Assembly: GCA_006218035.1 (NCBI GenBank)
Contig: VBWC01000006.1
Span: forward strand, 1 to 64,000
DNA: 64,000 bases
Direction: 5' to 3'
DNA from: Gammaproteobacteria bacterium
GTDB taxonomy: Bacteria; Pseudomonadota; Gammaproteobacteria; VBWC01
Positions 2,915 to 13,020 of the stretch are shown here, in pieces (positions within the stretch are counted from its first letter, which is position 1; every line of letters begins with the position of its first letter). A program made the translations under genes and the position numbers. Under the pieces are notes generated by a model. The model searched no databases and was not told the DNA's origin. It saw only the letters and a list, made by a program, of their open reading frames with translations.

Positions 2915-3496
2915 ATGAATAAACCTCGCCATATGAATCCAGGTGAGTTTATAAAGACTGGATTAAAAGAAGTTCTTGAGAGAATTCCGTCCAGAAATGG
3001 TCCCCCGGCTCTAGGGGTAGACGAAGGATTAAATGACAAGAAATATGTCTGGCCGTTAGTAAAGAGCCTGCAATCTAATCGTATCGTCGACCATGGCGTT
3101 GCTCTTTGGCATAAACAACAGCAATTAAAAAAAGGAAAAATATATAAACCCGCTGACAGTTTTCGGCCTCCCTGGGCAATTCCAGAGTTATGGGAAGATG
3201 TAAGGGGCGCATCTTGTCATGACGAAAATATCGTCTCTTCGCTTGTTTATTATTTTACAGCCCATGACAGGCTATGTTTATTAACAACCAATACAAAGAA
3301 CGACAAGGGTGGGTTACGTTGGATCCTTGAAAGGGAAGTCCAGCCAGCGATAGCTGTGACCTTTCCCGACAGAATTGGGTTGTTGGTTCTTTTTCAAAAA
3401 CCCGGCTCTACCTTGGAGCAGTATTGTACGGCGGTGGAAAGTTACTTAACTCAAAAAGGCGTTGGGCCCGGGTACAATTCCCAGATTATTGGATAA
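2915..3496 (+). CDS. Hypothetical protein, AT-rich orphan
   Basis: I do not recognise this protein. It has about 193 residues and no signal peptide or membrane segment. It is Lys-rich near the front (QQQLKKGKIYK) and has a hydrophobic beta-like stretch near residue 165 (IGLLVLFQ). Codon use is strikingly unlike its neighbours, with many A/T-ending codons and AAA/TTA runs. That suggests recent transfer from a lower-GC source. There is no good ribosome binding site: starts at TTG 2894, ATG 2915 and ATG 2933 are all possible, and I took the middle one. It sits alone between the ABC operon and an outer-membrane protein gene. Confidence 0.65.
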   Translation: MNKPRHMNPGEFIKTGLKEVLERIPSRNGPPALGVDEGLNDKKYVWPLVKSLQSNRIVDHGVALWHKQQQLKKGKIYKPADSFRPPWAIPELWEDVRGASCHDENIVSSLVYYFTAHDRLCLLTTNTKNDKGGLRWILEREVQPAIAVTFPDRIGLLVLFQKPGSTLEQYCTAVESYLTQKGVGPGYNSQIIG

Positions 3497-9943: not shown

Positions 9944-10369
9944 ATGCTTTGGGTCAAGGCGTTTCACATCATATTCATGGTGACGTGGTTTGCCGGCCTG
10001 TTCTATCTGCCGCGCCTGTTCGTCTACCACGCGATGGCCGATGACCGCGTCGGTGGTGAGCGCTTCAAGGTCATGGAACGCAAATTGTTCTACGGCATCA
10101 TGACGCCGGGCGCGGTACTGACGATTGCGTCCGGGCTGTGGATGATGATGGACTACGCGTGGGCGGCGTATGCGCACGCGGGGTGGTTTCAGTTGAAGCT
10201 GGTGTTGGTGTTGGTGTTGATCGCCTACCACGTCTACTGCGGCCGGCTGGTAGCCGTTTTTCGCGATGACAACAACCAGCGCGGACACATCTATTACCGC
10301 TGGTTCAATGAATTTCCGGTGCTGTTGCTGATCGCGATCGTCATACTGGTGGTAATTCGGCCGTTCTAG
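9944..10369 (+). CDS. hemJ: Protoporphyrinogen oxidase HemJ (CopD-like membrane protein)
   Basis: The 141-residue protein is a small multi-helix membrane protein that matches HemJ (UPF0093). HemJ oxidises protoporphyrinogen IX to protoporphyrin IX in haem synthesis. It has about four hydrophobic helices, with the N-terminal signature KAFHIIFMVTWFAGLFYLPR including the conserved His, a conserved KLVLVLVL helix and HVYCG. GTCGGG sits upstream of the ATG. An inverted repeat, CCGACAT (9879-9885) with ATGTCGG (9894-9900), surrounds a TAAAAT -10-like sequence just before the gene and may be an operator. Confidence 0.9.
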   Translation: MLWVKAFHIIFMVTWFAGLFYLPRLFVYHAMADDRVGGERFKVMERKLFYGIMTPGAVLTIASGLWMMMDYAWAAYAHAGWFQLKLVLVLVLIAYHVYCGRLVAVFRDDNNQRGHIYYRWFNEFPVLLLIAIVILVVIRPF

Positions 10370-10476
10370 CCGGTAGGCGACCCGGTGAACCGCGCGCGTC
10401 CGGGCCGCTGGCGCCGTCATTTTCGTCGCCGGACCGGCCGGTTTCCGGCCCTTGACAATCCGTATCAGGCATGAGC

Positions 10477-10686
10477 TTATGCACAAACTTCGGCTGATTT
10501 CCCGCCAGCGGTCCGGGGCGCACCAAATTTTTACGTTATTTCGTAAAACTTCGTAAGCTGTTGAATTATGAAGTTGTTAATCGGCGTCTACTTTGTAGTC
10601 AAATTGTCAAAATTCCAAAGATTATCGAGACTAGGCGCGCTTCGACCCATATCATCCACAGAGTTATCCACAGCTTTTGTGGATAA
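10477..10686. other. DnaA-box cluster next to AT-rich DNA (possible origin-like or DnaA-regulated element)
   Basis: Four sites match the DnaA box TTATNCACA or nearly so: TTATGCACA (10477-10485, +), TCATCCACA (10652-10660, +, one mismatch), TTATCCACA (10664-10672, +, perfect) and the inverted perfect copy TGTGGATAA (10678-10686). The three right-hand sites lie within 35 bases. Between 10525 and 10620 the DNA is unusually AT-rich for this genome, with repeated TTCGTAA motifs. There is no gene in 10370-10785. This resembles an origin or a DnaA-titration site, but it could also be DnaA control of priA. Confidence 0.55.
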
Positions 10687-10785
10687 GGGCGATTCCATCG
10701 GTCCGACAACGAGTTAGCCAGTATTCATGCTGAGTGCATCAAGAGTTGAAGCCAACCCCGTGTCGGGCAAGCCGGAGTCAAACGC

Positions 10786-13020
10786 ATGACCGGAATTTCT
10801 CGGGTTTTACGCGTGGCGGTTCCGTCGCCGCTGTGCCGGCTGTTTGATTACCTGCCGCCGCCGGGTTGCGATATCGACAAACTTGTGCCTGGTATTCGTC
10901 TGCGTGTGCCGTTCGGACCGCGTCACACGATAGGCATGTTGATCGAAGTCGCGTCGGCAAGCCAGATCGATCCGCAGCGCCTGAAGGCGGCGCTCGAGAT
11001 GATCGATGACGAACCGCTCGTTGGCCGGGATCTGCAACAGCTGCTGCACTGGGCGATCACCTATTACCATCACGCGCCCGGCGATGTGATGTTTACCGCA
11101 CTGCCGGCGCTGCTGCGTCAGGGCCGCGCGCCCGATGTTGCGCAGCAGATGCTATGGCGCGCGAGCGGTGCCGGTACGACTGTGCGACCGGAGCAGCTGG
11201 CGCGCGCGCCGCGCCAGGCAGCACTGCTCGCGTTATTGCAGGGACATCCGGCGGGACTGACCGCCGCCGATTTGGCCGAGCAACTCGATTTTGACTGGCG
11301 TGCGGCGCTGCGCACGCTGACGGCCAGGGGCTGGATCGAACGACATGCGGTAGCTGCCACGAGCGACGGCGCGGCGTCCGGTGGCGCCGCCGGGCTGACT
11401 GCGGAGCGCGGACCGGAGCTGAACGCCGCGCAACGCGTGGGCGCAGACCGGATCGTGGCGTCGCTCGGCGGCTACGCGGCGTTTTTGCTCGATGGCGTGA
11501 CCGGCAGCGGCAAGACCGAGGTCTACCTGCAGGCGCTCGCGCGCGTTGTCGCTGCTGGAGGCCAGGCGCTGGTGCTGGTGCCGGAGATCGGCCTGACGCC
11601 GCAACTGGTCGCACGCTTCGAGCAGCGCCTCGGCATCACGATGGCGCTGTATCACTCCGGTTTGACCGACCGCGAGCGCCTGCACACCTGGCTCGCGGCC
11701 CGCGCCGGCCAGGTGCCGGTGGTCATCGGCACGCGTTCGGCACTATTCGTGCCGCTCAAGCGTCCGGCGTTGCTGATTGTCGACGAGGAGCACGATCTGT
11801 CGTTCAAGCAGCAGGAGGGATTTCGCTATCACGCGCGCGATCTGGCGGTGGTGCGGGCGCGTAACGCGGGTGTGCCGATCGTGCTGGGGTCGGCGACGCC
11901 GTCGCTGGAGAGTCTGTACAACGTCGCCCAGGAGCGCTATCAGCACCTCACGTTGAAGGCGCGCGCCGGTGTCGCCGAACAACCGCCGGTGCATCTCATC
12001 GACGTGCGCCGCCAGCCGCTGCACGAAGGGTTGTCCGATAGTTTGTTGCAGGCGATTGCGCGGCATGTGGCACAGGGCAACCAGGTGCTGCTGTTTCTCA
12101 ACCGCCGCGGCTACGCGCCGACGCTGTTGTGCCACGATTGCGGCTGGATGAGCAAATGCGAGCGTTGCGACGCGCACATGACGTTTCATCTGCGGCAGCA
12201 GCGGCTGCGGTGTCATCACTGCGGCGCCGAACGTGCGGCGGTCGAGCAGTGTCCCGGCTGCGGCGGCCAGGATCTGCTGCCGGTCGGCGAGGGGACGGAG
12301 CGCATCGAGCGAGTGTTACACGAACGCTTTGGGGACACCCAAATCGTCCGCATCGACCGCGACACCACGCGCCGCAAGGGGGCAATGCAGGAGTTTCTGG
12401 ACAGCGCCGCCGCCGGCGGCGGCCGTATTCTGATCGGTACGCAGATGCTGGCGAAGGGCCATCATCTGCCCGGGGTGACGCTGGTTGGCATCGTCAACAC
12501 CGATCAGGGGCTGTTCGGCGCCGATTTCCGCGCGCTCGAGCGCATGGCCCAGTTGATCGTGCAGGTGTCCGGTCGTGCCGGACGCGCCGACAAGCCCGGC
12601 GAGGTATTAATACAGACGCATCATCCCGATCATCCGTTGTTGCGCACACTGGTCCACCACGGTTATGCGCACTTCGCGCGCGAGGCGCTGGCCGAGCGCG
12701 AGCAGGCCTGCCTGCCGCCGCACATGCATCTGGCGCTGCTGCGCGCCGAAGCGGTTGACCGCGATCTGCCGCCGAAATTTCTCAGCGCGGCCAAGTCGCT
12801 GGCGCAGGATCTGGCCGTCGCCGGTGTTGAACTGCTGGGACCGGTGCCGGCGCCGATGGAGCGTCGCGGCGGCCGCTACCGGGCACAATTGCTGGTGCAG
12901 GCCGGGCGGCGCGCCGATCTGCACCGGTTGTTGACGCCATGGGTGCCGCAGCTCGAAACCGTGCGGCTTGCCCGAAAGGTGCGCTGGTCGCTCGACGTCG
13001 ATCCGCAGGAAATGGTCTAG
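10786..13020 (+). CDS. priA: Primosomal replication restart helicase PriA
   Basis: PriA binds stalled or repaired forks and reloads the replicative helicase. At 744 residues it has the usual length. The N-terminal DNA-binding region is followed by Walker A GVTGSGKTEVYL (near 237), DEEHD (near 333), helicase motifs including GSATPSLESL, and the zinc-binding insert with paired Cys (CHDCGWMSKCERC, then CHHCG and CPGCG, about 449-495). GGAG lies nine bases before the ATG. It is followed by a truncated MITE-like repeat, argS and a SPOR-domain gene, the same order as priA-argS in Pseudomonas. A DnaA-box cluster occupies the upstream gap. Confidence 0.97.
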   Translation: MTGISRVLRVAVPSPLCRLFDYLPPPGCDIDKLVPGIRLRVPFGPRHTIGMLIEVASASQIDPQRLKAALEMIDDEPLVGRDLQQLLHWAITYYHHAPGDVMFTALPALLRQGRAPDVAQQMLWRASGAGTTVRPEQLARAPRQAALLALLQGHPAGLTAADLAEQLDFDWRAALRTLTARGWIERHAVAATSDGAASGGAAGLTAERGPELNAAQRVGADRIVASLGGYAAFLLDGVTGSGKTEVYLQALARVVAAGGQALVLVPEIGLTPQLVARFEQRLGITMALYHSGLTDRERLHTWLAARAGQVPVVIGTRSALFVPLKRPALLIVDEEHDLSFKQQEGFRYHARDLAVVRARNAGVPIVLGSATPSLESLYNVAQERYQHLTLKARAGVAEQPPVHLIDVRRQPLHEGLSDSLLQAIARHVAQGNQVLLFLNRRGYAPTLLCHDCGWMSKCERCDAHMTFHLRQQRLRCHHCGAERAAVEQCPGCGGQDLLPVGEGTERIERVLHERFGDTQIVRIDRDTTRRKGAMQEFLDSAAAGGGRILIGTQMLAKGHHLPGVTLVGIVNTDQGLFGADFRALERMAQLIVQVSGRAGRADKPGEVLIQTHHPDHPLLRTLVHHGYAHFAREALAEREQACLPPHMHLALLRAEAVDRDLPPKFLSAAKSLAQDLAVAGVELLGPVPAPMERRGGRYRAQLLVQAGRRADLHRLLTPWVPQLETVRLARKVRWSLDVDPQEMV

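Follow-up and report, generated by a model that had tools for sequence, protein, structure and literature searches.

The intergenic sequence that precedes priA in the gammaproteobacterial DNA studied here is probably a DARS-type element (DnaA-reactivating sequence), a reading to which our analysis gives a probability of about 0.72. The analysed stretch of 64,000 nucleotides, hereafter called the window, makes up the first 64 kb of an 85-kb contig (C49) in a 3.01-Mb genome of 62 contigs. From its distal DnaA box to its core, the putative module occupies about 219 bases (positions 10471 to 10689, plus strand) and reads toward priA. Judged by its predicted sites, the architecture is that of DARS, and function is assigned to it by homology.

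The cores of Escherichia coli DARS1 and DARS2 bind ADP-DnaA and release ADP; DARS2 additionally requires IHF and Fis and governs the binding of Fis through DnaA box V, a consensus box (PMC5742627, PMC4245941, PMC8682772). Protein binding, nucleotide exchange and timing at the module are all transferred from E. coli in the following scheme. ADP-DnaA, left after initiation by Hda-stimulated hydrolysis, would bind core boxes III, II and I, the head-to-head pair II/I would promote ADP release, and the freed DnaA would take up ATP again in time for another initiation. IHF, bound at -98, and Fis, bound at -66, would give the regulatory arm its shape. The distal box at -175, a consensus box, may act as a sensor of ADP/ATP-DnaA, a role that has been proposed for box V of DARS2. 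An additional effect of the element on priA transcription is possible.

The box cluster and its setting

Three DnaA boxes, two of them exact, lie within 35 bases, as a preliminary description of this DNA had stated. Box III (TCATCCACA, 10652 to 10660, plus strand, offset 0) carries one mismatch; boxes II (10664 to 10672, plus strand, offset +12) and I (10678 to 10686, minus strand, offset +26 and inverted, so that it faces box II) are exact copies of TTATCCACA, and their offsets are those of E. coli DARS1. The fourth, distal box (TTATGCACA, 10477 to 10485, plus strand) is also an exact match and lies 166 bases away, or 175 start to start. Two further sites are predicted on the plus strand: an IHF-type site at -98 (TAAGCTGTTGAAT, 10554 to 10566) with eight of nine consensus bases and a Fis-type site at -66 (GTCTACTTTGTAGTC, 10586 to 10600) that matches the full consensus GnnYAnnnnnTRnnC.

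The flanking genes and the base composition are likewise as first described. A UPF0093 (HemJ-type) gene (9944 to 10369, plus strand, Pfam PF03653), which stands outside the conserved arrangement, ends before the gap, and priA, encoding primosomal helicase N' (ORF at 10786 to 13020, plus strand, with the Pfam domains PriA_3primeBD, PriA_C and Zn_ribbon_PriA), starts 99 bases past box I. According to the list of open reading frames, the core boxes (10652 to 10686) are intergenic. The DNA separating the distal box from the core is 66-68% AT (two 50-bp steps), compared with about 60% GC for the contig. Neither an Rfam match nor a tRNA was found in the window by a check for RNA elements, and no terminator was found in the gap between the HemJ-type gene and priA.

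The DnaA boxes are real and far beyond chance. Exact TTATNCACA occurs 36 times in the 3.01-Mb genome, three times within 210 bp here, and 6 Mb of simulated DNA contained no instance of the inverted box pair alone. When up to one mismatch is allowed, the core pattern has a single occurrence in the genome and its reversed control has none. In another genome of the same genus, whose PriA is 96% identical, the gap is kept almost letter for letter; boxes and spacing are preserved, and the single box change falls at a base left free by the consensus.

A conserved four-part module

PriA was found in 112 of 114 genomes, nearly all of different families, and priA positions were tabulated for 88 of them. 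In 39 of these 88 genomes the core pattern CAnnnnnTTATCCACAGnnnnTGTGGA, with one mismatch allowed, precedes priA by 13-425 bp and shares its strand. A hemJ homologue is present at just 6 of 110 priA loci, and the upstream neighbour varies. Among the named genomes that carry the module at priA are those of Methylococcaceae, Sedimenticola, Cycloclasticus and symbionts of tubeworms and mussels; none of 27 Pseudomonas priA loci carries it. Tandem pairs of modules stand upstream of priA in a few genomes (L032 860-1354, L238 1517-2436, L267 666-1217 and L268 1852-2405).

Alignment on the core revealed four fixed parts within otherwise diverged DNA. TTATRCACA stands near -177, the IHF consensus follows at -98/-99 and the Fis consensus at -66; the fourth part is the 0/+12/+26 triple with its last box inverted. 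The aligned set comprised 62 modules picked by their core, with omission of 7 of 31 copies away from priA, most of which have no distal box or no IHF site. A distal box on the same strand occurs at -188 to -159 in 60 of the 62 modules and is exact in 47; in the 23 further offset windows tested in these modules, not a single exact box turned up. An IHF site matching at least 8 of 9 bases falls at -101 to -96 in 42 of 62, where other windows average 0.5; for the full Fis consensus at -68 to -64 the count is 38 of 62, where they average 0.19. The positions of IHF site, Fis site and distal box are fixed across families.

A sequence-only model of the module, R1, was trained without any E. coli sequence; its E-values are rough, and training sequences match it by construction. 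R1 matches the window at 10471-10689 with 104.9 bits (E=5.1e-30), the window sequence being among its 62 training sequences; the nhmmer score of the window module is 113 bits.

Relation to E. coli DARS1 and DARS2

DARS1 and DARS2 each contain three boxes with equal spacing, box I being opposite to boxes II and III (PMC5742627), and the 0/+12/+26 inverted core of the module has this composition, orientation and spacing. The similarity extends beyond the boxes, covering R1 model positions 48-223 in DARS1 and 59-221 in DARS2. E. coli DARS1 (bioD-uvrB gap, about 813.1 kb in NC_000913, from which its sequence was taken) matches R1 with 37.2 bits (E=2.3e-11); spacing and orientation of its three core boxes are identical to those of the module, and the match includes an IHF-like sequence, TAACCAGTTAAAA, at -99. 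In two enterobacterial genomes the sole genome-wide match of R1 is the bioD-uvrB gap, that is, the DARS1 locus. DARS1 differs from the module in that its IHF-like site is degenerate, the aligned stretch has no full Fis consensus, the model match includes no distal box and the gene neighbourhood is another one.

For DARS2 (rppH-mutH, about 2.969 Mb) the match reaches 19.5 bits (E=6.8e-6) and takes in the IHF site at -87. The reported regulators of DARS2 are IHF, Fis and DnaA box V (PMC4245941, PMC8682772), Fis being an activator (PMC4245941). In common with the module, DARS2 has the core triple, Fis sites and, about 90 bases ahead of the triple, an IHF site; a DnaA box of consensus sequence, by that sequence probably box V, lies at a distance of about 180 bases. 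The choice of the DARS2 core triple also rests on sequence: within the DARS2 region (L107), the model match and the IHF spacing favour the triple at 3135-3170 over one at 3448-3482.

The regulatory arm of the module thus has predicted consensus sites for both IHF (10554-10566) and Fis (10586-10600), as DARS2 does, but their order departs from the DARS2 series of core, IHF, Fis and box V. The E. coli Fis sites lie beyond the IHF site, whereas that of the module stands between IHF site and core; the distal box is on the opposite strand; the E. coli core boxes are weaker and the locus is different. Because Fis is predicted on the core side of IHF and the distal box points the other way, the module is best described as a modified DARS2 layout rather than a replica. 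DARS1 and DARS2 furthermore lie between oriC and the terminus in E. coli, whereas the module lies close to dnaA, at a distance of 67 kb in the sister genome. The order of Fis and IHF sites, the orientation of the distal box and the position near dnaA are all points against the DARS reading.

Alternative explanations

At a datA-like or titration site, IHF-assisted DnaA oligomers would hydrolyse ATP or soak up DnaA, thereby lowering initiation. E. coli datA (boxes 7 and 2, IHF, box 3) does resemble the module in that distal boxes, IHF site and proximal boxes follow at similar distances; its IHF site precedes box 3 by 97 bases, and at -174 there is a box-like sequence, compared with -98 and -177 in the module. 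This shared geometry of distal box and IHF site counts against the DARS reading, though the match of R1 to datA is weak (14.7 bits, core part only, against 37.2 for DARS1), and a location near dnaA is what titration models favour. The core arrangements, however, differ: the inverted 0/+12/+26 triple is that of DARS, whereas datA has no such triple and its +12 box is itself inverted. The conserved Fis site of the module also argues against datA, Fis being an activator of DARS2 (PMC4245941), and datA inactivates DnaA. We consider a datA-like role unlikely.

The cluster might instead be a DnaA-controlled priA promoter region, coupling the restart helicase to the DnaA cycle. The same-strand core upstream of priA in 39 of 88 genomes is consistent with this, as is the link to priA that stays when the upstream neighbour varies. 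Yet equally complete copies of the four-part module occur beside rimO-type and hemN-type genes, rpmE, proS, lon and others, in either orientation and with neighbours on either strand, so that the module can stand without priA. Positions 10350-10850 gave no match to a sigma-70-type promoter, and a promoter role as the primary one is improbable.

The preliminary description had seen in the cluster the architecture of a replication origin or a DnaA reservoir, though in an atypical gene context for an origin. Its origin half fails on GC skew, which had been proposed as the check; what stands is a DnaA-binding regulatory site outside the origin, now narrowed to the DARS type. DnaA boxes, IHF site and AT-rich DNA are all present, as expected of oriC, and in the fragmented genome of the window (62 contigs) the skew is itself uninformative, with the contig extending just 10 kb to the left of the element. 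Three relatives supply the answer. In the same-genus genome, a single contig carries both dnaA (14.7-16.1 kb) and priA. Cumulative skew along it is lowest at 15-25 kb, beside dnaA, and climbs steadily across the priA element at 82.6 kb, 67 kb from dnaA. In a relative assembled as a single contig (G034), the sign of the skew switches at 560-580 kb, where dnaA lies (575 kb), and the skew is +0.07 to +0.09 on both flanks of the priA element at 828 kb. Another single contig (G020) has a contiguous skew minimum at 1.48-1.49 Mb, dnaA at 1.51 Mb and the priA element at 1.26 Mb. The skew minimum is thus 67-250 kb from the priA element and at or near dnaA, so that the element, intergenic in the window, lies away from oriC in these relatives, as a DARS does. 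Because the skew switches at dnaA in all three, the origin reading is refuted and the priA box cluster is ruled out as oriC, with scarcely any probability left to it; genomes often carry two or more copies of the module, which also argues against an origin.

The genes dnaA, dnaN and rpmH, which the preliminary description had proposed to locate, lie elsewhere in the genome of the window, in a canonical rpmH-dnaA-dnaN-recF-gyrB cluster on another contig (neighbour gene names taken from translations). The gap between rpmH and dnaA is a common place for oriC. Here it has one exact DnaA box only (G000:C15:4491-4740, outside the window), and a richer cluster beside dnaA, which the preliminary description had named as part of the evidence that would refute an origin, was not seen. 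The skew of the sister genome puts oriC no more than about 10 kb from dnaA.

Chance clustering of short motifs, of negligible probability even though single one-mismatch boxes occur near background level in the window, is ruled out by the position-fixed four-part arrangement, which recurs in hundreds of genomes despite diverged intervening sequence.

Copy number, spread and partner proteins

R1 matches 334 of 369 gammaproteobacterial genomes (E<=1e-4), mostly twice each, and, more weakly, many genomes of other classes of the phylum. E. coli has two DARS copies per genome. Genes of rimO and hemN type recur beside second copies, though not universally, and the genes that neighbour DARS and datA in E. 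coli were not found beside them. The second copies of G034 and G020 lie about 1 Mb from dnaA.

The distribution of the module follows that of Fis: it occurs in 98 of 102 Fis-positive genomes and in 4 of 12 Fis-negative ones (Fisher p=4e-7, not corrected for kinship). The four genomes that match although no Fis was detected in them speak against the DARS reading. IhfA, Fis and Hda are all encoded in the genome of the window.

To our knowledge, DnaA recharging has been studied almost solely in E. coli. The open-access papers searched describe conservation of DARS2 only for E. coli-proximal species up to Vibrio and Shewanella. A DARS linked to priA is reported in none of them, which is weak evidence of novelty. 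With slightly less than even odds, DARS would be a module of ancient standing, present as a rule in two copies, in nearly all Gammaproteobacteria and in some other Pseudomonadota; its ancestral copy would have become fixed upstream of priA, where it may couple DnaA recharging to replication restart, and E. coli DARS1 and DARS2 would be its diverged, relocated descendants. Presence of the four-part module in about 90% of the sampled gammaproteobacterial genomes would make control of initiation by DnaA nucleotide exchange testable class-wide. In the consensus that the module supplies, the positions of DnaA, IHF and Fis are defined, and the location of the module links the DnaA cycle to the replication-restart helicase PriA.

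The genome of the window has a second, partial copy (C31:25970-26162, E=4.8e-9) in which box I is not at the right distance. Both genomes of the genus carry such a partial module (G000:C31:25970-26162; L111, G001:C14:55892-56083), with distal TTATACACA, boxes III and II and a displaced box I; in the sister genome it lies 40 kb from dnaA, between kinase-type and gspC-like genes (names read from sequence). Some relatives, such as G041, G029 and G075, have three to six module copies, and one much-sampled family outside the class (f200) has one to seven per genome.
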